From positions 310,001 through 374,000 of the forward strand of contig NZ_FRCS01000007.1 in NCBI RefSeq assembly GCF_900143005.1: a stretch of 64,000 nt of DNA, given 5' to 3'. This stretch comes from Cryptosporangium aurantiacum (GTDB lineage: Bacteria > Actinomycetota > Actinomycetes > Mycobacteriales > Cryptosporangiaceae). This document shows positions 885-19,721 of this stretch, one piece after another. The translations under genes were made by a program, and so were the position numbers. The stretch's first letter is position 1, and every line of letters starts with the position of its first letter. The notes beneath the pieces are model-generated. The model was not told the origin of the DNA. It saw only the letters and a list, made by a program, of their open reading frames with translations, and made no database searches.

Positions 885-970
885 AGCGCCGGAGCCTAAC
901 CGCTGGCGCCGCGCTGTGCCGGTTGGGATACCGTGCACTCCGCCCCTACCTGCGGACCCCCCTCGGAGCC

Positions 971-2632
971 ATGGCGCGCACCCTTCTCGTCTCATCACGG
1001 AAGCCCGGGGCGTACCCCTCGCTGGCCGACGCGTTGGAGGTCGCCGAGCCCGGCGCGACGATCTCGATCGAACCCGGCGAGTACCGGGAGAACGTTTCGG
1101 TCACCGGCGGATCGCTGACCCTGGTCGGGCTCGGCGAGCCCGGCGAGGTGACGATCGACGCGACCGGCACCGGCCGCCCGGTCGTCTCCGGCCGCGACGC
1201 GACCGTGACTCTGCGCGGGCTCTCCCTGCGCTCGGCCGACGGACCCGCGGTGCACGCCTCCGGCGGCGTGCTGGAACTCGCCGACTGCACGCTCGCGGCC
1301 GGTTACGGTGCGGCGATCACCGCCACCGACGGCGCGGAGCTGCGGGCCGGTTCCTGCCAGATCACCGCCGGTCAGTACGGCATCGTGTGCTCCGACGCCA
1401 CCGGCGTGATCGAGGCGTGCGAGATCTCCGACATGATGGACGACGGCATCATCGTCCGGCTCGGGGCCGACCCGACGATCCGCAACACCACGGTCACCGG
1501 CGCCGGTTACCGCGGCGTCTACGTCTACCAGTCCGGCCGTCCGACGCTGGACGGCTGCGAGATCGCCCGGGCGGGTGACGTCGGAATCGCGGTCGCCTAC
1601 GACAGCCACCCGACCGTGCGCTCCTGCCGCATCCACCACACCGGCGGCGTCGGCATCCAGGTCGGCAGCGGCTGCGGCGGGGTGATCGAGGACTGCCGGT
1701 TCGAGAGCACCGCGTCGCCGGACATCCTGCTCGAGCCGGGCGCGAACCCGACGATCAGCGCGACCCGCCAGACCCCGCTGACCGGCGCCGATGCCGACGA
1801 CGGCGCGCAGGTCGAGGTCGAAAAACTGCTCGCGCAATTGGACGCGATGGTCGGGCTCGCCGCGGTGAAGAGCGAGGTCCGGTCACTGATCGACGAAATG
1901 CAGGTGAACACTTGGCGCCGCGAGGCCGGGCTGGCCGTCGGCGCGGTGAGCCACCACCTGATCTTCACCGGCGCGCCCGGAACCGGTAAGACCACCGTGG
2001 CCAGGCTCTACGGGCAGCTGCTCAAGAGCCTCGGCGTGCTGCCGGACGGGAAGTTCAAAGAGGTCTCTCGCCGCGATCTGGTCGGCCAGTACATCGGCCA
2101 CACCGCGGAGAAGACGGCCGCGGTGATCGAAGAGGCGACCGGCGGCGTGCTGTTCATCGACGAGGCCTACACGCTCTCCCGGTCCAGCGGCGGCGGCGCC
2201 GACTTCGGCCAGGAAGCCATCGACATGCTGGTCAAGCTGATGGAGGACCGGCGGGACTCACTCGCGGTCATCGTCGCCGGCTACACCGCGGAGATGAGCG
2301 ACTTCCTCGACGCGAACTCGGGTCTGGCGTCGCGGTTCGCCAAGACGCTGGAGTTCGAGAACTACAGCCCCGCCGAGCTGACGCTGATCGCCGGGCGGAT
2401 CGCCGCCGCCGACGACTACCTGCTCGCGCCCGGCCTGGAGGACGGGCTGTTCGAGTGGTTCGCCGGCATCGACCGGACCGCCAACTTCGGCAACGCCCGC
2501 GAGGCGCGCAAGCTGCTGGAGGGCATGCGCAAGGCGCAGTCCGGACGGCTGCGGAGGCTCGGCCGGGTGCCCACCCGCGACGACCTGCGCACGCTCACAC
2601 TCGACGACCTGCTGGCCGCGACCGGCTCATGA
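971..2632 (+). CDS. EccA-like AAA ATPase with N-terminal parallel beta-helix
   Basis: This is a 553-residue protein with two parts. Residues about 30-260 are repeated short beta-strand units typical of right-handed parallel beta-helix (pectate-lyase-like) repeats. Residues about 285-550 are an AAA domain of the CbxX/CfqX (EccA) group: Walker A GAPGTGKTT at 334-342, Walker B VLFIDEAYTL with D397/E398, and a sensor region VIVAGYT. EccA proteins are cytosolic ATPases of type VII secretion, thought to act on substrates or chaperones; mycobacterial EccA has TPR repeats in place of the beta-helix. ATG 971 follows a weak GGAG and matches the domain start better than a TTG 48 bases upstream. It overlaps the mycosin gene by ATGA. 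Confidence 0.85.
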   Translation: MARTLLVSSRKPGAYPSLADALEVAEPGATISIEPGEYRENVSVTGGSLTLVGLGEPGEVTIDATGTGRPVVSGRDATVTLRGLSLRSADGPAVHASGGVLELADCTLAAGYGAAITATDGAELRAGSCQITAGQYGIVCSDATGVIEACEISDMMDDGIIVRLGADPTIRNTTVTGAGYRGVYVYQSGRPTLDGCEIARAGDVGIAVAYDSHPTVRSCRIHHTGGVGIQVGSGCGGVIEDCRFESTASPDILLEPGANPTISATRQTPLTGADADDGAQVEVEKLLAQLDAMVGLAAVKSEVRSLIDEMQVNTWRREAGLAVGAVSHHLIFTGAPGTGKTTVARLYGQLLKSLGVLPDGKFKEVSRRDLVGQYIGHTAEKTAAVIEEATGGVLFIDEAYTLSRSSGGGADFGQEAIDMLVKLMEDRRDSLAVIVAGYTAEMSDFLDANSGLASRFAKTLEFENYSPAELTLIAGRIAAADDYLLAPGLEDGLFEWFAGIDRTANFGNAREARKLLEGMRKAQSGRLRRLGRVPTRDDLRTLTLDDLLAATGS

Positions 2633-3882
2633 GGGGCGCCCGAGCCGCAGCGGTGGCGGCCGTCGTGCTGGCCGGGGTGCTCGCGCCGTGCACGCCCGCC
2701 GCGGCGGCACCGGCTACCGAGCAGTGCGTCGACCCAGGCACGGCGCTCGCCCAGGTGCCCTGGGCGCAGGAGCGTCAGTCCCCGAAGACGATCTGGCCGG
2801 TCGCCGACGGCGCGGGAACCACGGTCGCGGTCCTGTCCTCCGGTGTGGACGCGCGTCACGAGCAGCTCGCCGGGCGGGTCCGGGCAGGCGAGGACTACCT
2901 GCCGGAATCCACCTCCGGCGCCGACACCGACTGCCGGGGCGTCGGGACGCAGGTCGCGGGGGTGATCGCCGCGGACTTCGTTCCGAACATCGGCTTCAGC
3001 GGGCTGGCGCCCGGCGCGACGATCGTGTCGTACCGGGTGGCCCTGTCGACGCTCGTGGGCACCGGTGAGGGCGTCGACGAGCGGGCCGGGACCCCGGCCA
3101 CGCTCGCCGAGGGGATCCGCGACGCCACCGCGGCGCGGCCCGACGTCCTGGTCGTGCCGGTCGTCACCTACACCGACGACCCGGGCCTGCGGGCCGCGGT
3201 GGCCGCGGCGATCGCCGCCGACATCGTGGTCGTCGCGTCGGTCGGCAACGTGTCGAATCCGGAGCAGGCGGCCGGGCTGCCCTACCCGGCGGCCTACGAC
3301 GGCGTCGTCGGCGTGATCGCGATGAACCGGGAGGGCACGCTCGCCGGTGGTGGCGTCGCGCCGGCGGGCGTCGACCTGGCCGCGCCCGGCGACGAGCTGC
3401 TCTCCACCCAGGCGGGCGGCGGGCTGGTCGAGGTCGGCGGCAGCGCGATCGCAGCCGGGTACGTCGCGGGCACGGCAGCGCTGATCCGCAGCCGGTGGCC
3501 GTCCGCCCCGGCCACCGAGGTCGTGCGGCGGCTGCTGGCCACGGCGACGCCGTCCACCGAGCGCGCCGGGGACGGCATCGTCAACCCGGTGCAGGCCGTG
3601 ACCGCGACGCTGACCACCGCATCACCCGAGGCGCGTGTCGCCGAGCCGAAGCGCGAGGCCGCGACCGGCGGGGACGACGGAGCGCGCCGGATCGCGCTCC
3701 TCGCGGCAGCCGTGCTGGCCGCCGCGGCGCTGCTGGGGGTGGCGTTCGCGGTCGCGCTGCCGCGAGGCAGGCGCCGTCGCTGGCGTCCCGGGTTCGCGCC
3801 GCTGCCCGAGGAGCACCCGGAGGACGACGCCCCGGCCCCACCTCGCATGCTGTTCGAGGACTGGACCGCGGGCAAACGCTGA
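2629..3882 (+). CDS. Mycosin-like membrane subtilase, catalytic triad lost (pseudoprotease)
   Basis: A 417-residue type VII secretion mycosin (MycP family). It has a signal peptide (about 1-26), an S8 subtilase fold, a C-terminal transmembrane helix (about 352-375) and a short basic cytosolic tail. All three catalytic positions are changed: the Asp of VAVxDSGV is Ser70 (VAVLSSGVD), the His of GHGTxVAG is Val105 (GVGTQVAG), and the nucleophile of GTSxAAP is Ala273 (GSAIAAGYVAG). The oxyanion Asn207 (ASVGN) remains. In mycobacteria MycP stabilises the ESX membrane complex independently of proteolysis, so a structural role is plausible. The frame is intact, so this is not a decayed gene. Its start overlaps the EccA-like stop (ATGA). 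Confidence 0.9.
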   Translation: MRGARAAAVAAVVLAGVLAPCTPAAAAPATEQCVDPGTALAQVPWAQERQSPKTIWPVADGAGTTVAVLSSGVDARHEQLAGRVRAGEDYLPESTSGADTDCRGVGTQVAGVIAADFVPNIGFSGLAPGATIVSYRVALSTLVGTGEGVDERAGTPATLAEGIRDATAARPDVLVVPVVTYTDDPGLRAAVAAAIAADIVVVASVGNVSNPEQAAGLPYPAAYDGVVGVIAMNREGTLAGGGVAPAGVDLAAPGDELLSTQAGGGLVEVGGSAIAAGYVAGTAALIRSRWPSAPATEVVRRLLATATPSTERAGDGIVNPVQAVTATLTTASPEARVAEPKREAATGGDDGARRIALLAAAVLAAAALLGVAFAVALPRGRRRRWRPGFAPLPEEHPEDDAPAPPRMLFEDWTAGKR

Positions 3883-4737: not shown

Positions 4738-6126
4738 TCATCGTTCACCGGGCGACGCGGTGCGCGCGGCTCCCTCCTGGGTCAGTGCGGGACCGGCGGG
4801 CACCCGGTCGAGTAGTGCGGTCGGTAGCGTGACCGCGTCCCCGGTCGAGTAGCCGAGCATCGCGAGCGCCTCGGCCGACTCCACCGGGAACCGCACGCCG
4901 ACGTCGGTGACCAGGCTGTACGTCCCGGTCTCGCGGGCACGGACGACGGCGATCGCGCCGCCGGGCACCACGATCCGGTCGGCGAGCACCGCACCGTCGT
5001 TGGTGCGCGCCCGGGTCGGCGTCCCGACATCGGTGCTGCCGCCCTCGGGCACCACCGTGACGAGCGGCGCGTTCTCGCCGACGAACGCGGCGCACAGCCC
5101 GGATTTCGCGGACGTCGCGGCGAGCTTCGGCGATCGCTCGGGCGCCCGCTGGTCGGCCGGCGAGTCGGACTCGAGCTTCTCGCTCTTGCGCGCCGCGGTG
5201 ATCTCGGCGGTCGCCATCGTCACCGGCTCGACCGCGCGGGTGGCCCGCAGCAAGTCCATCTGAAGGCCGGTGAGCGGGGCGAGCCCGTCGTCCAGGACGA
5301 GGTAGTCGGTCTCGCCGTTGTCCCGGCGGTCCGCGACGACCTCGCCGATGTCGTGCCCGGGCACCGCCTCAGATTCCTGCCCGGCGTCCGGGATCGACAG
5401 TTCGCGGATCGGGTCGCCCTCGGGGAGCGTGTCCAGCCAGGCGCTGCCGGCCTCGACCGGGCGGGTGCCGCTGCCGAACAGAGCGCTGGGCACCGTGCTG
5501 CCGGTGAGCCGGTAGCGGTGCCCACGCCAGACCAGGTACTCGGCGCCGGCCGCGGCATCGCGCACGTAGAGGCCGGACTCGCCGAGCGCCACCGCGTCCG
5601 CCGGCCCACCGCCGACGATCACCATCGTGACGACGGTGTCGCCCCCGGCGGCGTCGCGGCTCGGCAACACGCAGGACGACCAGCCTCCGTCGAGCACGAG
5701 CTTGGTGCTGGGCAGCGCCGCCGGCGCGTCCGCGATCCCGTGCGGGGTGCCGCGGGGGACGCCGCGCAGCGAGTTGCGGGGCACCGTGAACGTCTTCGGC
5801 GGTGCCTGGCCGGCGAGCAGCAACGCGCTGCTGTAGTTCAGTGCCGGGATCAGCGTCTCGCCCGCGTAGACGAACGCCGCGCCGGTCTCCTTCTCCACGA
5901 CGACCGCGTTCTCGACCTTCCACCGGCCGCTGCCGGTCTTGGTCAGCAGACCGTAGATCCCGAACGCGGCCGCGACGATGACCGTGACCATGACGCCGAC
6001 GAAGGCCGCACCGACGCCCCGCCGCAGCGGCGACTGCGCGGGGTCGGTCTCCCGCATGATCAGCGCGGAGATCGCCCGCTGCAGCATGAACTGGTAGGAG
6101 TGCAGCTGGTCCTTGCGCGAGGCCAT
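4738..6126 (-). CDS. eccB: Type VII secretion core component EccB
   Basis: A 462-residue protein with the signature EccB N-terminus MASRKDQLHSYQFMLQR, a short cytosolic segment, one transmembrane helix (about residues 38-62) and a large extracytoplasmic domain of R1-R4 type repeats. EccB is one of the inner-membrane core proteins of the ESX complex, with EccC, EccD and EccE. It ends 140 bases from the EsxB-like start and begins 6 bases after the EccD stop, so eccD-eccB form one transcript. Length matches the family. Confidence 0.95.
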   Translation of the reverse strand: MASRKDQLHSYQFMLQRAISALIMRETDPAQSPLRRGVGAAFVGVMVTVIVAAAFGIYGLLTKTGSGRWKVENAVVVEKETGAAFVYAGETLIPALNYSSALLLAGQAPPKTFTVPRNSLRGVPRGTPHGIADAPAALPSTKLVLDGGWSSCVLPSRDAAGGDTVVTMVIVGGGPADAVALGESGLYVRDAAAGAEYLVWRGHRYRLTGSTVPSALFGSGTRPVEAGSAWLDTLPEGDPIRELSIPDAGQESEAVPGHDIGEVVADRRDNGETDYLVLDDGLAPLTGLQMDLLRATRAVEPVTMATAEITAARKSEKLESDSPADQRAPERSPKLAATSAKSGLCAAFVGENAPLVTVVPEGGSTDVGTPTRARTNDGAVLADRIVVPGGAIAVVRARETGTYSLVTDVGVRFPVESAEALAMLGYSTGDAVTLPTALLDRVPAGPALTQEGAARTASPGER

Positions 6127-6132
6127 GACGAA

Positions 6133-7530
6133 TCAGCCGCCCAGCGAGGCGAACAGCCCCTGGACGTAGCCGTAGAAGCCGGTGAGCAGGCAGGCGATCG
6201 GCAGCAGCGAGACCAGCAGCAGCACGTCGAGGATGTCGGCCAACCGGCCCACGTACGGAGACGGCGGGCGGCGGCTGTAGAGCAGCCCCGCGCCGAGCAC
6301 CGTGCCGCCGACGACCAGGGCCACCGGCACGGCGACCAGCACCGGCATGGCCAGCGCGAAGCCGGTGAACAGCAGCGCCAGCCCCAGCACGCCGCCGGCC
6401 AGCAGCGGGATCCGCTGCCGCGGGGTGGGGAACAGGCGCCCCCGTAACAGCAGCGCGGCCGACGCCACGGCGACCAGGATGACCGCGGACGTCCGTTCGG
6501 TGCCGGCCAGAACCCAGCCGCAGGCGACCCCGGTGACGCTCACCGCCAGGAGCAGACCGGTGAGCACCTCGTCCGCGCGGGCGACGGCGGCGAACACCTC
6601 CGCGCGTTGCGGCACCGGGTCGTCGCGCAGCATCTCCTCGGTGCGCTGCGGCAGCACCGGCATCGGCAGCTTGCCGATCCGCATCGAGAGCAGGGGATAG
6701 GCGGGCAGCAGCGAGATCGCCAGCGTGAGGACGATGGCCGCGATCCCGGCTTCGGACATGCCGGTCATGAGCGCGAGCAGGCCACCGACGACGCCGAGCA
6801 GGCCGGTGGCGACGCCGCCGACGAACACCCGGCCGTGCGCGCCGACTCCCAGATATCCGACGATCCCGGCGGTGGCCAGCGCGACCGATCCGACCAGCAG
6901 GTGCGCGGCGCCCAGCTCTCCGAGGTCGGTGCCCGCCGGCGCGACCGCGACCGCACCACCGGCGGCGGCGTACACCAGCCCCGGCCCGGCGACCGCGGCT
7001 CCGGCCACCGCGTCACCGGCGGCGCGGGCCAGCACGGTGCCGACGACGCAGAGCAGCAGCGCCACCCCGAGCGAGAGCCAGCCCGGCAGCGCCCACGGCG
7101 GGCCGGCCGAGAGGATCCCGACGACGCCGAGCAGCAGCGCGCCGGTGCCGACGGCCAGCGCACAGCGCCGCGTCGCCGTGCCACCCCACGAGCGTCCGTA
7201 GCGGCGGGCACCGCTGGCGATCGCCTCGACGACGTCGTCGTACTCGAGCTCGGGCCAGTCGGCCCGGCGGGGAACGAGGTGCAATACATCACCGTCGCGG
7301 ACCCCCTGACCGGACAGGTTGCGGTCACCGGCGAGCAGCGTGCCGGTCGACGTGCGCAGCGCCCACCCGCCGTGGCGCTCGCCGTCGTCCGCGGCGCCCT
7401 CCCCGGCGTGCAGCAGCAGGCTGGGCAGGAGTTCCGCGACCGCGAGGTCCTCGGGTAACGCGACGTCGATCCGGCGCTTGGGCGTGCTGACCGTGACGCG
7501 CGCCAGCCCGGTTCCGACGGAGACGGTCAC
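6133..7530 (-). CDS. eccD: Type VII secretion core membrane protein EccD
   Basis: A 465-residue protein with an N-terminal ubiquitin-like (YukD-type) domain (about 1-85) followed by about 11 transmembrane helices, the layout of EccD, which forms the membrane vestibule of ESX complexes. The GTG start at 7530 is set by the ubiquitin-like fold beginning at once (VTVSVGTGLARVTV). It is the first gene of the leftward eccD-eccB pair and is divergent from eccC; the 134-base gap between them must hold both promoters. Confidence 0.95.
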   Translation of the reverse strand: MTVSVGTGLARVTVSTPKRRIDVALPEDLAVAELLPSLLLHAGEGAADDGERHGGWALRTSTGTLLAGDRNLSGQGVRDGDVLHLVPRRADWPELEYDDVVEAIASGARRYGRSWGGTATRRCALAVGTGALLLGVVGILSAGPPWALPGWLSLGVALLLCVVGTVLARAAGDAVAGAAVAGPGLVYAAAGGAVAVAPAGTDLGELGAAHLLVGSVALATAGIVGYLGVGAHGRVFVGGVATGLLGVVGGLLALMTGMSEAGIAAIVLTLAISLLPAYPLLSMRIGKLPMPVLPQRTEEMLRDDPVPQRAEVFAAVARADEVLTGLLLAVSVTGVACGWVLAGTERTSAVILVAVASAALLLRGRLFPTPRQRIPLLAGGVLGLALLFTGFALAMPVLVAVPVALVVGGTVLGAGLLYSRRPPSPYVGRLADILDVLLLVSLLPIACLLTGFYGYVQGLFASLGG

Positions 7531-7664
7531 GCTGTGCTACCTCCGGACAAACGGGGGTCGAATCGACGGGGCAAACCTAGCAGCCGCCGGTGCCGCAGTT
7601 GCAGCCGAAGCCCGGTGGTTATCGTGCACTCTGTGCGGTGCCATCCGTCGAAAGGGGAGCCTGC

Positions 7665-10600
7665 GTGGTCGCGGTGATCGTGAAGCGTCCGGTGCGGCAG
7701 CCCGCGCCGGAGCTCCCCGGCGGCGAGGTGGTCCTGGACCCGCCGCCCGAGGCCCCGCAGCCGAACAACCAGGCCTGGTCCCGGCTGATGATGATCATGC
7801 CGATGGGCGCCGGAGCAGCGGCGATGGGCTTGATGGTCGGCGGCGGACGCGGTGGCGCGCTGGCCTACGTCGCCGGTGGCCTGTACGGCGTCTCGATCCT
7901 CGGCATGATCGCCGCCCAGCTGGCCAACCAGGGCGGCGGCCAGAGCAAGCGCGAGATGATCGCGGCCAGGCGGCAGTATCTGCGGCGGCTGTCGCAGCTG
8001 CGGGCCGCGGTCCGGGGGACCATCCGCCAGCAGCGGGAGGCGATGCTCTACCGGCACCCGGACCCGGACGCGCTGTGGTCGACCGCGCTCAGCGCCCGGC
8101 TGTGGGAACGCCGTCCGGCCGACGGCGACTTCGGCGTCGTCCGGATCGGACGCGGTGCGCAGGAGATCGCGACGCCGCTGATCCCGCCGGAGACCCGGCC
8201 GGTCGACGAGCTGGAACCGCTCTGCGCGAGCGCCTTGCGGCGCTTCGTCACCACGTACTCGGTGGTTCCCGACCTGCCGGTCGCGATGGCGCTGCGGGGC
8301 TTCTCTCACGTCCACGCGCGGGGGGACGCCGAGCGCGTGCACGGAATGGTGCGGGCGCTGATCGCGCAGCTGGCCACGTTCCACGCGCCGGAGGAGGCGC
8401 TGATCGCGTTCTGCGTCTCCGACCAGCAGCGTCCGCACTGGGAGTGGGCGAAGTGGCTGCCGCACGCGCTGCACCCCACCCGGTCGGACGCCGTCGGCCC
8501 GGTGCGGCTGGTGGCGCCGTCGGTGACCGCGCTGGAGGCGATGCTCGACGACGTCCTGGCCCACCGCCCACGCTTCAACCCGGGTGCCGCGCCGAGCGAG
8601 GGTGTCCACCTGCTGGTGGTGATCGACGGCGGCGCCACGATCGGATCGGACCACCTGATGGCCGAGGGCGGCGTCGAGGGCGTCACGATCCTCGACCTGG
8701 GCAACCCGCCGCCGCGGGTGCTCGACCCGTCGGCGATCGTCCTGGACGTGGACGCCGACGGCGTGCTGTCCAGCACGACGATGGACGGCCGGTCGGAGAT
8801 CGGGCCCGCCGACAGCCTCGGCCCGATCGAACTGGGTGCGCTCGTGCGCCGGCTCGCTCCCTTGCGGCTGTCCGCGGCGTCGGTGGGGGAGACCCCGCTC
8901 GTCGGCGAACTCGGCCTCGCCGAGCTGCTCGACCTGGGCGATCCGTACGAGTTCGACGTGCAGCACGCCTGGGCGACGCGGCCCAACCGCGACCGGCTGC
9001 GGGTGCCGATCGGCGTGAACCCGGACGGCCGACCGGTGGAACTGGACCTCAAGGAATCCGCGCAGGACGGCATGGGCCCGCACGGCCTGCTGGTCGGTGC
9101 GACCGGCTCCGGTAAGAGCGAACTGCTGCGGACGCTGGTGCTCGCGCTCGCCGCCACCCACTCGTCCGAGACGCTCAACTTCGTCCTCGTCGACTTCAAG
9201 GGCGGCGCGACGTTCACCTCGCTGGACCGGTTACCGCACACCAGCGCGGTGATCACGAACCTCTCCGACGAGCTGGCGCTGGTCGACCGCATGCAGGACG
9301 CGATCTCCGGCGAGCTGATCCGCAGGCAGGAACTGCTGCGCTCGGCCGGTAAGTACGACTCGCAACGCGACTACGAGCGGGCCAGGGCCAGCGGTGTTCC
9401 GCTCGCCCCGCTACCGAGCCTGCTGATCATCTGCGACGAGTTCAGCGAGCTGCTCACCGCCAAACCCGACTTCATCGACATGTTCGTCCAGATCGGCCGC
9501 GTCGGTCGTTCGCTCGGTGTTCACCTACTGTTGGCGTCGCAGCGCCTGGAGGAGGGCCGGCTGCGCGGCCTGGACTCGCACCTCTCCTACCGGATCGGCC
9601 TGCGGACGTTCTCCTCGATGGAGAGCCGCACGGTACTCGGCGTCCCGGACGCCTACGAGCTGCCGCGGTCGCCGGGCAACGGCTACATCAAGGCGGGCAC
9701 CGAGGGACTGGTCCGGTTCAAGGCGGCCTACGTCTCCGGCCGGTACCAGCGCGGGAAGGACCGGCCGCGTTCGCTGCCGCGCTCGGTCGACCCGGTGCAG
9801 CTCTACACCAGCCGCTACCAGGCAGCGGCCAACGCCGAACCGGAGCCGGTAGCGGTCCCGGCCCCCGACGCCGACGAGCACACCCCGCGCGGCGAGACGC
9901 TGCTGCGCGTCCTGGTCGAGCGTCTGACCGGGGTGGGTGTCCCGGCCCACCAGGTCTGGCTGCCGCCGCTGGCCGCACCGCCGACCCTCGACCAGCTGCT
10001 GCCGCCGCTGGTCACCGACCCCGTCCGCGGGCTGACCGTCGCCGACGTGGAGCGCCGCGGCGCGCTGCACGGCGTCGTCGGCCTCATCGACCGGCCGTTC
10101 GACCAACGGCGGGACGTGCTGGACGTCGACCTGTCCGGCGCAGCCGGAAACCTGATCGTGGCGGGCGCGCCGCAGGCCGGGAAGAGCACGCTGCTGCGCA
10201 CGCTGGTGGCCGGGCTCGCGCTGACCCACACCCCCGCCGAGGTGCAGTTCTACGGTCTGGACTTCGGCGGTGGCGCGCTGGCGGGCCTGCGTGAGCTGCC
10301 GCACCTGGGCGGTGTCGCCGGCCGCCGGGACGTCGACGAGGTGCGCCGCACGATCGCCGAGATGCACACGTTGCTCACCGCGCGGGAGCAGCTGTTCACC
10401 GCGCACGGCGTCGACGGCATGGCCACCTACCGCCGGCTCAAGCGTGGCGGCCGGTTCGCCGAGGACGCGTTCGGCGACGTATTCCTCGTCGTCGACGGCT
10501 GGGGCACGCTGCGCACGGAGTTCGAGGACCTGGAGCCGGTGCTGACCGATCTCGCGCAGCGCGGGCTCGGCTACGGCATCCACCTGCTGGCCTCGGTGAG

Positions 10601-11630
10601 CCGGTGGATGGAGCTGCGACCGGCGGTCCGTGACATGTTCGGCACCCGGCTCGAGCTGCGGCTGGGTGACCCGTCGGACTCCGCGATCAACCGGCGCGCG
10701 GCGCTCAACGTCCCGAAGGACGCCACCGGCCGCGGCCTGACCCCGGACGCGATGCACTTCCTCACCGGGTTGCCGCGGATCGACGGCCACCCCGATCCCG
10801 CCAACCTCAGCGACGGCGTCGCCAAGCTGGTGCAGCGGATCCGCAACGATTGGCAGGGCGCTCCGGCGCCGGCCGTCCGCCTGCTCCCGCCGCTGCTGCC
10901 GTTCCACGCGCTGCCCCCGGCCGGGTCCGACACCGGGCGGGGCTTGCCGATCGGCATCGCCGAGGCCGACCTGTCCCCGGTGCGGCTGGACTTCGACGCG
11001 GAGCCGCACGCGCTGCTACTCGGCGACGTCGAGTGCGGCAAGAGCACGTTCCTGCGCTGCCTGGGCCGGACGATCACCGAGCGGTACGAACCGCGGCAGG
11101 CGCGGATCATCCTGCTGGACTACCGGCGCAGCCTGCTCGGGGCGATCAGCTCGGACCACCTGATCGGATACGGCACGTCGGCGGCGGTCACCACGGACCT
11201 GGTCGACCAGGTCGTCACCGTGATGAAGAGCCGCCTGCCGGGGCCCGACGTCACACCCGAGCAGCTCCGCACCCGCAGCTGGTGGAGCGGGCCCGACCTG
11301 TTCCTGCTGGTCGACGACTACGACCTGGTCGTCAACGGCCCCAACAACCCGCTGCTGCCGCTGCTGGAGTACCTCGCTCAGGGCCGCGACATCGGACTGC
11401 ACGTCGTCGTGACCCGGCGGGTCGGCGGCGCGGCCAGGGCGCTCTACGACCCGTTCCTCGGCCGGATCCGCGAGCTGGCGTCGCCGGGCATCCTGATGTC
11501 CGGGCCGCGCGAGGAGGGACCGCTCTTCGGCAACCTCAAGCCGAGGCCGCTGCCGCCCGGCCGCGGCTGGCTGGTCACTCGCCGGGGCGGAAACCAGCTG
11601 GTCCAGTTGGCCCACCTTCCGGCCGAGTGA
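7665..11630 (+). CDS. eccC: Type VII secretion ATPase EccC (three FtsK/SpoIIIE domains)
   Basis: The 1321-residue motor of the ESX system. Two transmembrane helices (about residues 38-85) precede three FtsK/SpoIIIE-like ATPase domains with Walker A motifs GATGSGKS (478-485), GAPQAGKS (834-841) and GDVECGKS (1120-1127). Domain 1 has a Walker B LLIICDEFSEL; domains 2 and 3 have FLVVDGW and FLLVDDYD. The protein is a single chain, not split into EccCa/EccCb. GTG 7665 is preceded by GGGGAG at the right distance, so the upstream in-frame ATG is not used. It would recruit substrates through the C-terminal domain. Confidence 0.96.
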   Translation: MVAVIVKRPVRQPAPELPGGEVVLDPPPEAPQPNNQAWSRLMMIMPMGAGAAAMGLMVGGGRGGALAYVAGGLYGVSILGMIAAQLANQGGGQSKREMIAARRQYLRRLSQLRAAVRGTIRQQREAMLYRHPDPDALWSTALSARLWERRPADGDFGVVRIGRGAQEIATPLIPPETRPVDELEPLCASALRRFVTTYSVVPDLPVAMALRGFSHVHARGDAERVHGMVRALIAQLATFHAPEEALIAFCVSDQQRPHWEWAKWLPHALHPTRSDAVGPVRLVAPSVTALEAMLDDVLAHRPRFNPGAAPSEGVHLLVVIDGGATIGSDHLMAEGGVEGVTILDLGNPPPRVLDPSAIVLDVDADGVLSSTTMDGRSEIGPADSLGPIELGALVRRLAPLRLSAASVGETPLVGELGLAELLDLGDPYEFDVQHAWATRPNRDRLRVPIGVNPDGRPVELDLKESAQDGMGPHGLLVGATGSGKSELLRTLVLALAATHSSETLNFVLVDFKGGATFTSLDRLPHTSAVITNLSDELALVDRMQDAISGELIRRQELLRSAGKYDSQRDYERARASGVPLAPLPSLLIICDEFSELLTAKPDFIDMFVQIGRVGRSLGVHLLLASQRLEEGRLRGLDSHLSYRIGLRTFSSMESRTVLGVPDAYELPRSPGNGYIKAGTEGLVRFKAAYVSGRYQRGKDRPRSLPRSVDPVQLYTSRYQAAANAEPEPVAVPAPDADEHTPRGETLLRVLVERLTGVGVPAHQVWLPPLAAPPTLDQLLPPLVTDPVRGLTVADVERRGALHGVVGLIDRPFDQRRDVLDVDLSGAAGNLIVAGAPQAGKSTLLRTLVAGLALTHTPAEVQFYGLDFGGGALAGLRELPHLGGVAGRRDVDEVRRTIAEMHTLLTAREQLFTAHGVDGMATYRRLKRGGRFAEDAFGDVFLVVDGWGTLRTEFEDLEPVLTDLAQRGLGYGIHLLASVSRWMELRPAVRDMFGTRLELRLGDPSDSAINRRAALNVPKDATGRGLTPDAMHFLTGLPRIDGHPDPANLSDGVAKLVQRIRNDWQGAPAPAVRLLPPLLPFHALPPAGSDTGRGLPIGIAEADLSPVRLDFDAEPHALLLGDVECGKSTFLRCLGRTITERYEPRQARIILLDYRRSLLGAISSDHLIGYGTSAAVTTDLVDQVVTVMKSRLPGPDVTPEQLRTRSWWSGPDLFLLVDDYDLVVNGPNNPLLPLLEYLAQGRDIGLHVVVTRRVGGAARALYDPFLGRIRELASPGILMSGPREEGPLFGNLKPRPLPPGRGWLVTRRGGNQLVQLAHLPAE

Positions 11631-11734: not shown

Positions 11735-12712
11735 GTGGCCGGGAACGAACTCATCGCCGACCTGGCGGCGATCGGCCAGTACGGCATGAAGATGCAGTTC
11801 TTCGCGGGTCAGGCCGGGGTGCCGATCGCGACGAAGCTCTCGGGTGTCGAGGTCGACAGCGCCGGTGCGTTCAACGGGTTCAGCGACGCCGGCACGTTCG
11901 CCGAGGGCTCGGTGATGCAGGCCGCGATGGCCAAGCAGTCGTACGCGTTCAACGCGTTCCTCGCCGACATGACCCGCGGGCTGATGGCGATCGGCAACGC
12001 CGCCAACGTGTGCGCGCACGCGTACAGCACCGGCGACATCGAGGCGGCCGAGAAGATGAACCTGCTCGGGTTCGCGTTCGCCACCGACCCGGACGCGAAG
12101 GCACCGCCCGGAGTACCGAAGGGCATCGGCGAGACGATGCTCGACCAGTCGCTCAAGCAGCAGGACTCCGGTCTGCCCGAGGCGCTCACCGATCCGAACG
12201 GTGGGACGACGGCCCAGGTCTACGGCTCCGGCTACCTGACGACGTACTCCGACGGCTCGTCGAAGATGGTGCACAGCGAGCCGATCACCGGAGCGCCGGG
12301 AGCGTCCATGATGGTCACCACGATCACCGGCGCCAACGGCCAGGTGATCAGCACTACGACCACCCACACCCGGTACAACGCCAACGGCACCTCGAACGAG
12401 TACTTCCGCAAGACCGTCACGGCGGGCACGGAGGTCGACAACGGTGAGGGCAAGAAGACCAAGAGCCCCGACATCACCGTGGTGACCGAGACCAGCGACG
12501 CCCCGAACGGCGACAAGGTCATCACAAAAACGACGACGGTCGGGGAGGCGGCGCCGAAGGTCGAGAAGACCACGGTCGACCCGACTCCGACGGCGCCGGT
12601 GACCACGCCGGGCGCCGGCCCACTGGAAAAGACGCAGGACGTGCTCGGACCCGAGGCCGGGAAGATCGACTGGCGCAAGGGTTACCAGGGCGTCGAAGCG
12701 CCGTCGTCGTAG
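11735..12712 (+). CDS. Probable type VII substrate, helical N-terminus with YxxxD motif
   Basis: A 325-residue protein between eccC and the 705-residue gene, with a strong AAGGAG five bases before GTG 11735. Residues about 1-105 are Ala-rich and helical, ending in HAYSTGDIEAAEK, where YSTGD fits the YxxxD/E type VII export signal. The rest is Thr/Gly-rich, with many TTT/TTH stretches, and resembles no enzyme I recognise. It is probably a secreted ESX-associated protein that pairs with the next product, but this is inferred from position and motif only. Confidence 0.7.
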   Translation: MAGNELIADLAAIGQYGMKMQFFAGQAGVPIATKLSGVEVDSAGAFNGFSDAGTFAEGSVMQAAMAKQSYAFNAFLADMTRGLMAIGNAANVCAHAYSTGDIEAAEKMNLLGFAFATDPDAKAPPGVPKGIGETMLDQSLKQQDSGLPEALTDPNGGTTAQVYGSGYLTTYSDGSSKMVHSEPITGAPGASMMVTTITGANGQVISTTTTHTRYNANGTSNEYFRKTVTAGTEVDNGEGKKTKSPDITVVTETSDAPNGDKVITKTTTVGEAAPKVEKTTVDPTPTAPVTTPGAGPLEKTQDVLGPEAGKIDWRKGYQGVEAPSS

Positions 12713-12730: not shown

Positions 12731-14848
12731 ATGGGGGACGAGTACTACGGCTACGACGCGGCCGACAACGACAAGCTCATCGAGCTGCGCCATCTCGGAC
12801 GCCGCACCGGCGACAACCTGACCGAGTACGGCGACAGCTCGGTCGGCTCGGACTACTTCACCGACTACGAGCAGACGTACAAGCCGACCGGCAAGCCCAC
12901 CGAGACGATGTCCCAGGAGGGCTACGACTACTTCAACAAGACCGACGGGTACGGGCGCACCGGGGCGTCCGGGTCCGGTATCGAGGCGATCTACAAGCGC
13001 ATCATGGCCCAGAACCCGGGCAAGGTGCAGGCGCTGATCGACCACTGGTACGGCATCGCCGAGGCACTGCGCTCGGTGATGGCCGAGGTCAAGACCAAGA
13101 GCGACGACGTCCACAAGCACTGGACCTCTCCCGGCGCCACGCAGTTCCTCACGCTCGGGCCGGGCGCCGCGCTGAAGTCGCTCAACGACTGGCAGATGGC
13201 CGCCGCCCAGACGTCGATGATGCTCCAGCTCGTGCTGCACGACCTGCAGGCCAAGCAGACCGAGATCCAGACGCTGTACAAGCAGTACACCGACGAGGTC
13301 GCGACGTGGCACAAGGAGATCGAGCTCAAGGGCCCGGAGGAGGTCAAGAACGCCGAAGACCTCTACGCCAAGCACATCGCCGACATCCACCAGAAGTACA
13401 CGTATCCGGCGCAGGTGATCGAGAGCAAGCTCGCTGACGCCTACTGGGACGGCTACAACGGTGTCGTCTCCAGCACGCCCGGCGTCTACGAGGGACCGAC
13501 GAACGCGGTCGTCGCGCCGCCGCCGCTCGGTATGCCGAACATGCCCGGCCTGCCCGGCGCCGGTCCGGGCGCGCCGACGGCCATCCCACCGGGCCTGGCG
13601 CCGCCGACGCCGGTCAACCCGATGACCGCGAAGCCCGCTCCGCCCACGCCGCCGGTCGCTCCCGGCAAGGGTGGGCTGGCGCCGATCGGCCCGCTGAACC
13701 CGGTCAACGCCGGGCCACCGCCTCCGGTGGCGCCCGGCAAGATCGTCCCGCCGGTCGTCCCGCCGGTCGCACCGACGCTGGGGGTGCCGCCGCCGACGAT
13801 CCTGCCGCCCTCGATCGCGAAGGGCGGCCCCGCGCTGCCTCCCGGCGCCCCACCGGCGCCGGCGCCCCCGCCGAACGTCCGGCCGCCGGTGGCACCGCCC
13901 GCACCGACTGCGCCGACGAGTCCGGTGGCGAAGTCACTGGTCAAGGGCGTACTGAAGCCGGGGGGAACCCCGGGAAACCCGAACTTGCCGCCGATGCCGG
14001 GCCGGGCGCGGCCGAACGCGACACCACCGGTACCGCCGGGCATGCGTCCGGGCAGCGACCGGCAGTCCCGGCTGGCCAGGCCGGTGTTGGGTGGTTCCGG
14101 CCCCGGCGGCGGTCCCAACACTCCGCCGCCGATGCCCGGCGGCGGGCGGCGTCCGGACGCACCGGGCGGCCCCGGCGGCATGCGGGCGATTCGTCCCGGC
14201 GGCCCGGGTGGCCCCGGCGGCTCCGCGGGGTTGCCGCCGTCCCCGTTCGCGGGGCCGCGGCCGCCGGGCCCGTCGGTCCTGGGCGGACGCACCGGGCGGC
14301 CGGGCGACCCAGGCATCCCTGGTGTGGGCCGTACGCAGCAACCGCCCGGCGCGTTGCCACCGCCCGGGGCCACCCGGCCGGTGCTGGATCGGCGCGCCGA
14401 GGCCCCGCCACCGCCACCGCCCGGACGGCAGGCGGCGCAGCGGCCGAACCTGTTCCGCCCGCAGCCCGGAAGCCTGCCCAGCCCCTGGGGCCCGTCGCCG
14501 CTGACCCGGCCGGCGGCTCCGGTGCTGAACCAGGCGGTCGGGCACCGGCCGGGGGCCACCGCGCCGATGGGCGTTCCGGACGCGCTGCGGGGCACCGCAC
14601 CGGGCGCCACCGACCGGCCGACGGACGCGACCCGGCCGGTGACCCCGGCCGACCTGGCGGCGCGCCACCACGCGGACGCGGTGGCCCCGGTGCCGGTGGA
14701 CCAGTCGCTGGCGGCCGACGCGCCGGTGGTCCGGGACGAGGACGTGTTCGCGCCGGTCACGCCCGGCGGTCCGGTGCTGGCGCAGGGCAGCACGCCGCCG
14801 GAGTACCGCACGGAGGAACGCGTCGCGCTCCCCGGGTCGGGCCAGTAG
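12731..14848 (+). CDS. Large Pro-rich ESX-associated protein with WXG-like helical domain
   Basis: A 705-residue protein. Residues about 80-235 are strongly helical, with a hairpin turn KHWTSPGATQ (about 135) that resembles a degenerate WXG turn. Residues about 250-640 are very rich in Pro, Gly and Ala (PPAPPAP, GGPGG types), and a short acidic tail follows. The layout recalls PPE/Esp-like type VII substrates, with a helical secretion module plus a long disordered arm. No toxin domain is visible. ATG 12731 follows a weak GGGGAA. It lies 18 bases after the 325-residue gene, so the two are co-transcribed and may form a pair. Confidence 0.75.
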   Translation: MGDEYYGYDAADNDKLIELRHLGRRTGDNLTEYGDSSVGSDYFTDYEQTYKPTGKPTETMSQEGYDYFNKTDGYGRTGASGSGIEAIYKRIMAQNPGKVQALIDHWYGIAEALRSVMAEVKTKSDDVHKHWTSPGATQFLTLGPGAALKSLNDWQMAAAQTSMMLQLVLHDLQAKQTEIQTLYKQYTDEVATWHKEIELKGPEEVKNAEDLYAKHIADIHQKYTYPAQVIESKLADAYWDGYNGVVSSTPGVYEGPTNAVVAPPPLGMPNMPGLPGAGPGAPTAIPPGLAPPTPVNPMTAKPAPPTPPVAPGKGGLAPIGPLNPVNAGPPPPVAPGKIVPPVVPPVAPTLGVPPPTILPPSIAKGGPALPPGAPPAPAPPPNVRPPVAPPAPTAPTSPVAKSLVKGVLKPGGTPGNPNLPPMPGRARPNATPPVPPGMRPGSDRQSRLARPVLGGSGPGGGPNTPPPMPGGGRRPDAPGGPGGMRAIRPGGPGGPGGSAGLPPSPFAGPRPPGPSVLGGRTGRPGDPGIPGVGRTQQPPGALPPPGATRPVLDRRAEAPPPPPPGRQAAQRPNLFRPQPGSLPSPWGPSPLTRPAAPVLNQAVGHRPGATAPMGVPDALRGTAPGATDRPTDATRPVTPADLAARHHADAVAPVPVDQSLAADAPVVRDEDVFAPVTPGGPVLAQGSTPPEYRTEERVALPGSGQ

Positions 14849-14878
14849 GGGGTCAGGGCAGCAGGGGTCAGGGCAGCA
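14849..14878. repeat. Tandem duplication of 15 bp at the zwf stop
   Basis: Two perfect head-to-tail copies of GGGGTCAGGGCAGCA. The second copy holds the stop codon of the leftward G6PDH gene; the first has an in-frame equivalent stop. It looks like replication slippage. Confidence 0.8.
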
Positions 14879-16331: not shown

Positions 16332-17831
16332 TCAGCGGGCGGCGGGGGCTGGAGCCTCGTACCGGTGGGCGGGGCCGAACTGGGCGCGCTCGATGCGGGT
16401 CGGTTGCGTCCAGACGTAGCGGGGAGCGCCGTCGTCGAACAGCGCGAGCATGTCGTCCTGGAGGTTGCGGACCAGCGCGTGCGACTCCCGGGTGAGGCGG
16501 AGCAGCGACGTTCCCGCGGTCGCCTCCTCGGGCTCCAGCCGCTGCACCGCGACCAGGCTCGCCTCCCGGATCGCCGGGAACGCGTACGCGGTGAGCTGCG
16601 ACACCACCGACAGCTGGGCCTGCCACGGCCCGAGCGTGCCGTTGACCGTTCCGGTCAGCGCGCTCCCGTCCCGGACGACGAGCACCGGGGCGTGCGGCGA
16701 TGAGGGAGCCCGGAACGGGGTGTCGAGCGGGCGGACCAGCACGCGCTCGTCCGAGCCGGTGGCCCAGCGTCCGAAGCCGTTCCAGGCCTCCGGGCGTCCG
16801 GTGAGGACGGTCACGGATGCCCCGAGCGCCAGCGCGCGGAACACCAGGACGCGAGCCGCCCACAAACCGCCCACCAGCGCGATCCGGGTCGGCTCCGGCT
16901 GGAACAGGCGCGCGGTCGCCACCGTGTCGTCCGCGTCGAAACCGAGGACCAGGCCGGACGCGGTGCGCGGCGGGCTCAGCCGGCGCAGCGCCGGTCCGGT
17001 GGCGACGTGAGCGCCGACCGCGAGCCGGGGGAGCAGCCCCAGCCAGCGAGCGCGGCGGCGCCCGTTCGGCTGGACGGTTGCGCTGTAGACGGTGCCGGTC
17101 GGCGTGTGCGGCGGATCGGGCGGTGGGGAAGGGACCGCGGCGGCGACGGTGGCCGGAGGAGCGACGGCCGCCGCGTGCGCGGCCTGCCCGGCGGCAGCCG
17201 CGCCCCCCGGCGCGGACAGCACCCCCGGTTGGGCGACGCCCGGCTGCGCAAGGCCACCGGGCTGCGCAAGGCCACCGGGCTGGGCGAGGGCGCCGGGCTG
17301 GGCAGGAGTGCCAGGTCGGACCGTGCCCGGCTGGGGCAGCGCCCCAGGTGTGGGCGGCGCGGCGGGTCGCGCGGGCGCGGCCGGTGGATACGCCGCCGGG
17401 CCGCTCGGCATCGCGGCGCCGGGCGCCGGGCCGGTCGGTGCGGTCGCGGCGCCGGTGAGCCACGGCTGCCCCGGCGCTGCCGGGCGGCCGGGCGCGGGCA
17501 TCTGCTGTCCGCCGCCGTACGGCTGGTGCGGGTGGCCCGACGCGGCCCCCGGCTGGGGCAGCGCCCCAGGCGAGGGCAGCGCGGAGTACGGCGCGGCCCC
17601 GGCGTGCGGAGCCCCGGCGTGTGGCTGCCCGGCGTGTGGCTGCCCGGCGTGCGGCGCGGGATAGGGCGGGCCGGAGCGCGGCGCGGAGTGCGGTGGTGCG
17701 GAGTGTGGCGGCGCGGAGTGGGGTGTTACCCCGGAGTGCGGTGGTGCGCTTGCGGGCGGTGGTGCCGAGTACGGGGGCCCGGACTGCGGCGCAGCAGTGT
17801 GCCGGGGCTCGCCCGACTCGGGCGTCGTCAC
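16332..17831 (-). CDS. Pro-rich ESX-locus protein of unknown function
   Basis: A 499-residue protein whose GTG start overlaps the eccE stop (GTGA), so the two are translationally coupled. The first 270 or so residues are low-complexity Pro/Ala/Gly with short tandem units (PPHSA, HAGQP, GLAQP) that are also visible as DNA repeats. After a basic stretch (GRRRARW) the C-terminal 190 residues are a folded domain with a Rossmann-like pattern (RIALVGGLWAARVLVFRALA, then SVTVLTGRPEAW). I do not recognise the family. Coupling to eccE suggests a cytosolic accessory of the secretion machine. Confidence 0.75.
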   Translation of the reverse strand: MTTPESGEPRHTAAPQSGPPYSAPPPASAPPHSGVTPHSAPPHSAPPHSAPRSGPPYPAPHAGQPHAGQPHAGAPHAGAAPYSALPSPGALPQPGAASGHPHQPYGGGQQMPAPGRPAAPGQPWLTGAATAPTGPAPGAAMPSGPAAYPPAAPARPAAPPTPGALPQPGTVRPGTPAQPGALAQPGGLAQPGGLAQPGVAQPGVLSAPGGAAAAGQAAHAAAVAPPATVAAAVPSPPPDPPHTPTGTVYSATVQPNGRRRARWLGLLPRLAVGAHVATGPALRRLSPPRTASGLVLGFDADDTVATARLFQPEPTRIALVGGLWAARVLVFRALALGASVTVLTGRPEAWNGFGRWATGSDERVLVRPLDTPFRAPSSPHAPVLVVRDGSALTGTVNGTLGPWQAQLSVVSQLTAYAFPAIREASLVAVQRLEPEEATAGTSLLRLTRESHALVRNLQDDMLALFDDGAPRYVWTQPTRIERAQFGPAHRYEAPAPAAR

Positions 17832-19093
17832 AGGACTCCCACCCCGGTCGGCGCGGTCGCGTACACGGCCGGAGCCTGCTCCCCGTCGAGCGGGAACAGG
17901 TGCGCGCCGTGGTTCCGTGCGGTGGTGCGCAGGAGGGCGACCGTCCGGCCGATCGTCTCCGGCGCATCGACGACCCGGACCAGGCACCGCAGCTCGGCCC
18001 CACCGCTCCCCGGCGTCATCGCGAGGCTGATGCTGGTCAGCGCCGCGGGCGACCGGTACAGCGCGGCCAGCAGCGGCCCGCACCGGTCGAGCGACGGCCA
18101 CGACCGGATCCAGAAGCACTGGTGGTCGAAGCCCGCCGCGCGCCACCCGCCCCAGGACTCCACGGCACTCCGCCGCTCGGTGCCCGCCGGGCTCACCTCC
18201 ACCGCGAGCGAGTGGACCAGCGCGTCCAGCAGCCCGTCCCCGTCCAGCACCTGGTGGGCGAACCCGCTGCGCTTCAACACGTTCCCGATCCGCCGGACCA
18301 GCGCGCCCAGCACCGTCGGGACCTCGCTGATCGCCTCCGGCTCCGCGACCGCGACCTCGGCCACCGCCTTCGCCTCGATCCGCACGGTCACCCAGCAGAG
18401 CTGGTCGCCGACGCTGACCGGGGCGACCGTGACGTCGGTCCCGCCGCCGAGCGGGCGCAGCAACTCCCGATAGGACTCCGCCGCCGGATCGGTGCGGGCC
18501 GTGTCGTCGCCAGGGACCGTGTGCACGACCAGCTGCACGACGCTGCCGGGTTGCTCGGCGTCGGCCAGCGACCGGGCCAGCTGATCCAGCGGCGGCAACG
18601 CCTGCGCCTCACCGCGCAACCCAGGAGTCGGCTGCACCGCGACGACCGCGAACCAGCCCGCACCGTCCCGGCCCACCCCCAGGCGCGTACCGCCGACGCC
18701 CTCCACCGTCTCGACCGTCAGTTCCGGCGCCAGATCGCGCAGCGTGGTCAGCCGACGATCGTCCGCAAGCAACCGGGCGGACGCCCGACGACGGCGATAC
18801 CGGGAGCGGAGCACCAGTCGCTCGGCCGCCCACCGCCCGCGGAAGCGGGCGAACACCACGACCGGGAGCACGACCGCGACCCCCCACAGCGCCGGACGCA
18901 CCCATCCGGTGGCGTTCCAGCCGACCACCGCGAGCACGAGCGCCAGCTCCAGGCAGACGATCTGCAGAACGTTGACCGGACCGAGGTGACCGGGGCGACG
19001 CCGGCGACGGAGGGTGGCCGGTTCCTGATCGGTGGGTAACTGCGCACCCACGCGAGCGACCGCCCGTACGCGCGGCGAGTCGATCGTGGCCAC
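17828..19093 (-). CDS. eccE: Type VII secretion protein EccE
   Basis: A 421-residue protein matching EccE: a short N-terminal region, two adjacent transmembrane helices (about residues 30-80, ILQIVCLELALVLAVVGW and a second ALWGVAVVLPVVVFARF), then a soluble domain of about 330 residues. EccE lies at the periphery of the ESX membrane complex. GTG 19093 has a GAAGGGAA site just upstream; the frame is open further but that part only shadows the SUKH gene. It is 77 bases downstream of the SUKH-3 gene on the same strand. Confidence 0.88.
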   Translation of the reverse strand: MATIDSPRVRAVARVGAQLPTDQEPATLRRRRRPGHLGPVNVLQIVCLELALVLAVVGWNATGWVRPALWGVAVVLPVVVFARFRGRWAAERLVLRSRYRRRRASARLLADDRRLTTLRDLAPELTVETVEGVGGTRLGVGRDGAGWFAVVAVQPTPGLRGEAQALPPLDQLARSLADAEQPGSVVQLVVHTVPGDDTARTDPAAESYRELLRPLGGGTDVTVAPVSVGDQLCWVTVRIEAKAVAEVAVAEPEAISEVPTVLGALVRRIGNVLKRSGFAHQVLDGDGLLDALVHSLAVEVSPAGTERRSAVESWGGWRAAGFDHQCFWIRSWPSLDRCGPLLAALYRSPAALTSISLAMTPGSGGAELRCLVRVVDAPETIGRTVALLRTTARNHGAHLFPLDGEQAPAVYATAPTGVGVL

Positions 19094-19170
19094 TGCGCTT
19101 CCCTTCGGAGTCGAAAGGATTGGGGTCCCCTTCGGAATCGGATCTACTGCACGATAGCGCCGCCAGGTGA

Positions 19171-19653
19171 CTACCAGGTGCCGTCGTCGTGCACGCGTGG
19201 CGGCGCCGCTCCGGTCACCAGCGTCGTCAGCGCGCGGTCGACGTCGTCGCCCAGGAACCACTCGCCGCCGGCGTCCAGCGCGAACACCCGCCCGTGCTCG
19301 TCGATCGCCAGCACCGCGTCGTCGACACCCTCGATGCCGAGCGGGAACACCGCGACGCCCAGCGCCCGCCCGAACGCGGCCAGCGTCGCCGCGCTCGGCG
19401 GAACCATCGTCGGGTCGACCGCGAACGGGCGGCGGCGCAGCGCGACCCCGGGACCGTCCTGATCGACGTAGAGCCCGGCGAACTCGGTCAGGGCCTGCTC
19501 GGCCGCCGGGAACGGCACGTACCGCGATCCGTCGGCGGCGGTCTGTGCGCACACCGTCCGGATCGCCTCGGCGGCCGCGTCGGCGACCGACCGGCCCTCG
19601 GTCCAGCCGGCGCGCTCCAGCACGGCTTGGACCTCGCCCGGAAACCGCTGCAC
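19171..19653 (-). CDS. SUKH-3-like immunity-type protein
   Basis: A 160-residue protein. VLERAGWTEGRSV near the start and a following EFAGLYV segment match the SUKH-3 family, whose members mostly act as immunity proteins in polymorphic toxin systems. The GTG start at 19653 has GGAGGA six bases upstream. It lies directly ahead of eccE on the same strand, so it may be transcribed with the secretion genes. No toxin gene lies next to it in this window. Confidence 0.75.
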   Translation of the reverse strand: MQRFPGEVQAVLERAGWTEGRSVADAAAEAIRTVCAQTAADGSRYVPFPAAEQALTEFAGLYVDQDGPGVALRRRPFAVDPTMVPPSAATLAAFGRALGVAVFPLGIEGVDDAVLAIDEHGRVFALDAGGEWFLGDDVDRALTTLVTGAAPPRVHDDGTW

Positions 19654-19721
19654 CGTCGTCCTCCGCGTCTTCGTGCACCGGCAGATCCGAACGGCCGACG
19701 CTGGGAAACAACTTACTGGCC

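Follow-up and report, generated by a model that had tools for sequence, protein, structure and literature searches.

A mycosin without the catalytic triad in an ESX locus of Cryptosporangium aurantiacum

Mycosins (MycP) are required for ESX secretion and their activity is dispensable, according to a study in which secretion continued with catalytic-site mutants of MycP1 and MycP5 but not with deletions (PMC5082899). In the ESX-5 system, a MycP5 trimer caps the EccB5 chamber, its active sites face that chamber, and complexes without MycP5 lose their ordered periplasmic assembly (PMC8131196). The present analysis concerns a stretch of 64,000 nucleotides from the genome of Cryptosporangium aurantiacum (contig NZ_FRCS01000007.1, positions 310,001 to 374,000 of the forward strand), which is called the window. 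It contains an ESX locus with a gene for a mycosin that possesses none of the three catalytic residues, referred to here as the pseudo-mycosin. An earlier note on this DNA had proposed a pseudoprotease that is maintained by selection. Its case is supported here and was understated, as pseudo-mycosins recur in this order. It is quite likely that the protein is kept as a periplasmic cap that stabilises EccB and that it is unable to cut peptide bonds.

A mycosin with a vacated active site

The frame of the pseudo-mycosin gene is intact, as the earlier note had stated, with 417 amino acids (aa) and a stop codon. Its ATG overlaps the stop codon of the eccA-like gene (ATGA). The protein matches Peptidase_S8 (PF00082) with 84.8 bits against a cut-off of 21.8. 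A signal-peptide region, an ectodomain, and one C-terminal transmembrane (TM) helix can be recognized, the first and last of these being read from hydropathy and model helices alone. The membrane anchor that had been claimed is thus retained (model helix 349-381, hydropathy 2.66).

When the protein is aligned with 65 further subtilase rows, mostly mycosins, residues 70, 105, 207, and 273 coincide with the D-[ST]-G, H-G-T, G-N, and G-T-S motifs. The Asp-His-Ser triad expected of a mycosin is absent, and Ser70, Val105, and Ala273 are found instead. The AlphaFold2 model (mean predicted local distance difference test, pLDDT, 83.3; predicted template modelling score, pTM, 0.74; 27 sequences) agrees with the replacement of these residues that had been claimed. 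In it, residue 70 ends the strand 65-70, residue 105 opens the helix 105-114, and residue 273 is second in the helix 272-289, places which we take to be the subtilase sites of Asp, His, and Ser. The subtilase fold is retained. By VIA-align, the model matches MycP1 (4m1z) with Z 38.4 and a root-mean-square deviation (rmsd) of 2.1 over 275 residues, and MycP3 (4kg7) with Z 38.1 and an rmsd of 2.6 over 287 residues. Classical subtilisins score up to Z 39.5, which by the VIA-align rule is a tie with MycP1 and MycP3. The alignment and the structural comparison, made with MycP1 and MycP3, together describe a mycosin-type subtilase from which the triad is gone. Cys33, before the domain, and Cys102, inside it, are presumably a mycosin trait.

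The sole ectodomain histidine is His77, and 89 of 116 intact rows, counted with duplicates, also have His there. The orthologue in the same-genus genome G003 also has a single ectodomain histidine. Because the ectodomain has one histidine, a relocated triad of standard residues is unavailable, and a migrated triad was ruled out. The pseudo-mycosin is strongly predicted to be without catalytic activity. The earlier note had also counted the oxyanion residue Asn207 among the retained features. It is present (AAC), but it is not a conserved trait, since both sister orthologues have Asp there and three relatives of family f14 have Gln or Glu.

Orthologues, selection, and relatives without an intact mycosin

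Four same-genus genomes were among the relatives searched. The triad is gone in both of the other same-genus genomes that carry the locus, with differing residues. The orthologue in G003 (71% identity) has A/G/D/A at positions 70/105/207/273, and that in G002 (58% identity) has A/F/D/A. Ala occupies the Ser position in each of the three locus-carrying members of the genus, and none of their mycP genes has an internal stop. The gene order in G002 and G003 is eccA-mycP-esx-esx-eccB-eccD-eccC. As both sister genomes also lack the triad, a sequencing error at the triad codons is very unlikely. No orthologue of the pseudo-mycosin was found among the matches in G001, where the best match is 40% identical, intact, and located beside an eccB closest to that of contig C2.

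Values of dN/dS were calculated by the Nei-Gojobori method. With a G+C of approximately 0.9 at the third positions of these genes, dS is underestimated, the absolute values are rough, and only the comparison between genes counts. For the dead mycosin the values are 0.362 (window and G003), 0.520 (window and G002), and 0.447 (G003 and G002). The same pairs give 0.364, 0.580, and 0.488 for EccB and 0.142-0.246 for EccC. The intact mycosin MycPb gives 0.357-0.475 (two pairs; 0.357 against G003). Constraint on the dead gene resembles that on EccB, its presumed partner, and that on MycPb, and it is weaker than that on the intact MycPa. These values are in keeping with the proposal that selection keeps a non-catalytic form.

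Genomes in which dead mycosins occur without an intact one were found in family f3 and apparently exist in family f16. Family f3 was sampled with five genomes, G006, G021, G033, G042, and G050. In the order Asp/His/oxyanion/Ser positions, G006 has two mycosins, S/S/D/Q and S/E/D/G, G021 has G/Q/D/P, and both G033 and G050 have S/Q/D/A. Whole-genome searches with PF00082 identified two S8 matches in G006, both dead, and one in G033, also dead. There is one in G042 (a D/H/D/S gene), two in G021, the second being a distant subtilase with D/H/N/S, and three in G050, where the triad was read in one. The f3 dead genes adjoin eccB and eccD, plus eccC where the contig reaches, and each of the two in G006 is beside eccB-eccD-eccC. 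Further along, past eccC, G021, G033, the first G006 locus, and G042 have EccE and EccA-like genes, and no second mycosin was found in these fetched ESX stretches. EccB above cut-off was identified twice in G006 and G021 and once in G033, G042, and G050, and additional lower-scoring pieces are present in G006, G033, and G042. Thus, G006 and G033 keep ESX loci without any S8 match bearing an intact triad. The mycosin of G042 (L075:1306-2658) keeps D, H, and S, has Asp at the oxyanion position, and is sister to a fully dead one. Judged by its residues, it may be an intermediate or active.

In family f16, mycosins without the Ser were found in all eight genomes searched, six with D/H/D/A, one with D/H/D/G, and one with G/S/D/A. 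Genes for EccA-like, EccB, EccC, EccD, and EccE proteins surround the dead mycosin in the seven genomes with long contigs. In 7/8 genomes, the dead gene is the sole match that extends to at least position 350 of the mycosin model (353 positions); in the eighth, the dead mycosin is cut by a short contig. None of the other subtilases in the f16 genomes reaches position 350. Family f16 is apparently without a full-length intact mycosin.

The wider survey was assembled from rows picked by similarity to the dead protein or profile, or by hand, and it gives no unbiased frequency. The first alignment had 66 rows (13 flagged). An order-wide sample had 22 loci (7 flagged, all f16), and a further sample had 60 loci hand-picked from the order-wide list (15 flagged, or 14 without the frameshifted L273). 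L191 was added as a further f16 copy. The 37 flagged rows represent 35 distinct dead genes, after removal of L273 and of L152, a second copy of L092. These belong to families f1 (4), f3 (5), f14 (6), f15 (12), and f16 (8). L273 (in G218) was rejected as a dead mycosin, as an apparent frameshift, either a change in the genome or an assembly error, moves its Ser motif to another frame. A supposed EccC-mycosin fusion in G001:C37, taken from a 1689-aa open frame, was rejected as well, as EccC ends at its own stop. A contig scan with the query P0001 gave one distant subtilase, 24% identical.

A total of 21 dead genes are in the window's arrangement beside eccB (f1 3, f3 5, f14 3, f15 3, f16 7), including that of G050, whose contig holds only eccB and part of eccD. 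Of the rest, eight lie beside eccC in another ESX type, five are without fetched surroundings, and one (L116, f14) has no ecc gene within the fetched 20 kb. The f14 trio beside eccB reads S/S/Q/E, S/S/E/Q, and S/T/E/S, and the f15 trio reads S/A/D/A, G/A/D/A, and G/Q/D/A. Five of the eight other dead f14 and f15 genes in the 60-locus sample are D/R/D/A, and the four with fetched surroundings are all beside eccC in a different ESX type. In three f15 genomes (loci L288, L289, and L290), two, two, and three degenerate mycosins lie close together near eccC of this second ESX type. The sets are D/S/I/Q with D/R/D/A; D/R/D/A with D/S/T/Q; and D/H/A/D with D/T/T/E and D/R/D/A. An intact subtilase is found approximately 5 kb further from the set of D/R/D/A and D/S/T/Q.

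The last tree was built from 83 rows (33 dead) with the four catalytic columns removed. Prior to this, 35 rows present of 36 listed were taken out, including the dead L111b, L152, L191, and L273, and also intact rows more than 80% identical to a kept row (118 to 83 rows). The window's gene forms a clade with those of G003 and G002 (100/99), which is joined with the f14 trio (99/88). The f3 and f16 rows form one clade (100/99), and separate from these groups are the f15 trio (100/100) and the D/R group (99/99). The placement of the long branches L122, L116, L247, L036, and L092 is unsure. There are at least four changes between dead and intact on the best tree and three to six over the bootstraps, of which two are forced by well-supported branches alone. 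Earlier, smaller trees had the dead f1 rows as the sister group of f3 (94/94, first tree) or on one side with f3 and f16 (67/92, second tree). The nearest kin of the f1 dead group is not firm, because the trees place f1 differently, and a single origin of mycosins with an oxyanion Asp is not settled, as the f1 placement shifts between three trees. In the f3 and f16 clade, the oxyanion position is Asp in 13/13 rows, the Ser is lost in 12/13, and Asp and His are both lost in 6/13. Catalytic decay looks stepwise in this clade.

The ESX locus and the other mycosins of the genome

The pseudo-mycosin belongs to a complete ESX locus (Table 1). EccB, EccC, EccD, EccE, and WXG100 proteins are all present, plus an EccA-like protein. 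The earlier note had found no other mycosin in the locus, and this holds, as whole-genome searches give the pseudo-mycosin as the only S8 match and the only TIGR03921 match on contig C7.

Table 1. Positions in the window of the pseudo-mycosin, its residues and segments, and the other genes of the ESX locus.
Feature	Position	Strand	Evidence
EccA-like protein: right-handed beta-helix domain and AAA ATPase of EccA/SpoVK/CbbX type	923..2632	+	PF13229, PF00004, PF17866; TIGR03922 241.5 bits (cut-off 466.65)
Pseudo-mycosin, MycP-like S8 fold, 417 aa	2629..3882	+	PF00082, TIGR03921; model and fold match
Signal-peptide region, residues 1-27	2629..2709	+	Hydropathy maximum 1.95 from residue 9; model helix 3-15
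Ser70 (TCC) at catalytic Asp position	2836..2838	+	Alignment, AlphaFold2 model
Val105 (GTC) at catalytic His position	2941..2943	+	Alignment, AlphaFold2 model
Asn207 (AAC) at oxyanion position; Asp in both sister orthologues	3247..3249	+	Alignment
Ala273 (GCG) at catalytic Ser position	3445..3447	+	Alignment, AlphaFold2 model
C-terminal membrane helix, residues 349-381	3673..3771	+	Model helix; hydropathy maximum 2.66 from residue 355
WXG100 (Esx) protein, 103 aa	3924..4235	-	PF06013, E 9.2e-12
WXG100 (Esx) protein, 115 aa	4250..4597	-	PF06013, E 1.7e-9
EccB	4738..6126	-	PF05108; TIGR03919 above cut-off
EccD	6133..7530	-	PF19053, PF08817; TIGR03920 above cut-off
EccC (EccCa and EccCb)	7590..11630	+	TIGR03924, TIGR03925 above cut-off
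Locus protein, 325 aa, possible substrate	11735..12712	+	No Pfam or NCBIfam match; related stretches beside eccC in both sisters
Locus protein, 705 aa, possible substrate	12731..14848	+	No Pfam or NCBIfam match; relative in G002
EccE, start codon uncertain	17828..19723	-	PF11203 44.9 bits (cut-off 23.7); relative in G002

In the EccA-like protein, the beta-helix domain precedes the AAA domain, and similar genes were seen in other ESX loci examined. A glucose-6-phosphate dehydrogenase gene (14868-16238, minus strand) is located between the eccC side and eccE. A substitute peptidase was looked for inside the ESX cluster, and no peptidase family was found (ten proteins from the G077 and G021 stretches). 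A Peptidase_M23 gene is present beyond eccA in L088. It is possible that the locus encodes a substitute protease of a new kind, because four proteins of the window (325, 705, 186, and 237 aa) have no Pfam match.

The earlier note had called for a search for a second, active mycosin, and three intact mycosin-like genes were identified elsewhere in the genome. The whole-genome TIGR03921 search gave C2:674524 (314.5 bits, the only one above the cut-off), C24:17167 (248.6), and C2:706055 (209.3), and its weaker matches are pieces of other subtilases. All three keep D, H, N, and S at the catalytic and oxyanion positions. C2:674524 and C2:706055 flank a second ESX locus that has its own eccB, eccD, eccC, and eccE. 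Around C24:17167, ESX genes were looked for within 8 kb only. In the C2-type locus of G003 (L086:6491-6682) and G002 (L083:3967-4155), a stop cuts EccB to approximately 62-63 residues, which leaves the N-terminal part and the membrane helix and removes the periplasmic domain. The eccC, eccD, and eccE genes are still present in both, and G002 moreover yielded no mycosin beside eccE.

Possible roles and comparison with known systems

The pseudo-mycosin would be exported by way of its signal peptide and would be anchored by its one C-terminal membrane helix. By analogy with MycP5 of ESX-5, it may form a trimer on the periplasmic ring of EccB, and this trimer would close and stabilise the EccB chamber. 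The cap function and the contact with EccB are thus suggested by the published ESX-5 work. What was computed is the fold, the anchor, the complete ESX locus, the loss of the triad without a replacement, its loss in the sisters, the EccB-like constraint, and the ESX loci that have only dead mycosins. On these grounds, this branch of ESX systems can probably do without proteolysis by its mycosin. The complete gene sets in some relatives that have only dead mycosins suggest a protein that is retained for a structural role, as a cap, and not for enzymatic activity. Retention of a mycosin without catalysis across species and families fits this. On balance, we also lean towards pseudo-mycosins being a standing alternative ESX cap, found in at least five families of one order, with catalysis lost more than once and some genomes left without a competent mycosin.

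A number of observations weigh against the cap. With the TIGR03921 mycosin model, the pseudo-mycosin scores 215 bits (215.4 in the whole-genome search), under the curated cut-off of 278.75; the intact MycPb (209.3 bits) and the C24 gene (248.6) are likewise under it. Its dN/dS is above those of the intact MycPa (0.220-0.262, three pairs), EccA, EccC, and EccD. The surroundings of the vacated sites are more conserved than the rest of the domain in dead groups (identity ratio 1.13-1.24) as in intact ones (1.12-1.32). MycP5 has been suggested to be regulatory and not structural, as it was lost from the purified ESX-5 complex (PMC8232910), and the two ESX-5 structure papers disagree on this point (PMC8131196, PMC8232910). 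Finally, two intact mycosins near the second ESX locus and one elsewhere could act in trans.

This last observation leads to a division of labour, in which the pseudo-mycosin serves as the scaffold while an active mycosin from C2 or C24 joins it in mixed trimers or processes substrates in trans. The intact genes C2:674524, C2:706055, and C24:17167 make such supply possible in this genome, G002 and G003 also hold intact mycosin-like genes, and from the genome of Cryptosporangium aurantiacum by itself it cannot be concluded that the locus works without an active mycosin. The S8 search of G006 and G033, however, finds no gene with an intact triad, and the only other S8 match of G163 lies within a 1224-aa open frame. 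These assemblies are estimated to be 99-100% complete, so that a gene could have been overlooked in any one of them, although this is unlikely. Mycosins acting in trans therefore cannot be the general arrangement, and a division of labour is considered unlikely.

Alternatively, the groove could hold a substrate or partner uncleaved, as a gate, chaperone, or decoy. The conserved surroundings of the motifs leave room for a role of the peptide-binding groove, the active sites of MycP5 face the chamber (PMC8131196), and the subtilisin-like pseudoproteases CspC and CspA are described as having signalling roles. Nevertheless, mutants with a bulky groove are reported to be still competent for secretion in mycobacteria (PMC5082899, PMC5156307). 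The replacements at the Asp/His/Ser positions also vary by lineage (S/V/A, A/G/A, A/F/A, S/S/Q, G/Q/P), and residues that differ so widely do not suggest one new site chemistry. A binding pseudoprotease seems improbable.

Decay of mycP into a pseudogene, to which the lost catalytic residues and the dN/dS above EccA, EccC, EccD, and intact MycPa could point, is hardly tenable and was ruled out on rates like those of EccB and intact MycPb and on open frames in three genus members, with the fold and anchor retained and well-supported dead clades in several families. It is just as hard to credit an active protease with a relocated or alternative site, although some pseudoenzymes may have migrated residues (PMC10211241), given that the window protein and its G003 orthologue each have one ectodomain histidine, at a position commonly occupied by His, and that Ala stands at the Ser position throughout the locus-carrying genus members.

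The periplasmic cap thus is the preferred explanation. Lineages with dead mycosins separate naturally the requirement for a mycosin from its activity, and any function left to their mycosins is the non-proteolytic one. Candidates for the contacts with EccB and within the trimer are the positions conserved in both dead and intact mycosins. Organisms such as G006 and G033 would be test beds free of a confounding intact subtilase. No report of natural dead mycosins was found among the matches listed in the open-access literature (titles and abstract excerpts), which is no proof of absence.

The pseudo-mycosin is a new form of a known ESX component and not a new system. It resembles mycobacterial MycP1-MycP5 in its S8 fold (matched to MycP1 and MycP3), C-terminal TM helix, and position in an ESX locus. 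Unlike it, all five mycosins of M. tuberculosis are reported to have the Asp-His-Ser triad (PMC5156307), of which the pseudo-mycosin has none. It is also comparable to the laboratory-made inactive MycP1 and MycP5, which are described as non-catalytic mycosins in an otherwise complete ESX system (PMC5082899). Those differ in one engineered residue, whereas the loss here is natural, affects three residues, and is common to relatives. CspC and CspA of Clostridioides difficile are likewise described as subtilisin-like pseudoproteases kept for another function, but they are soluble germination proteins of unrelated locus and function.

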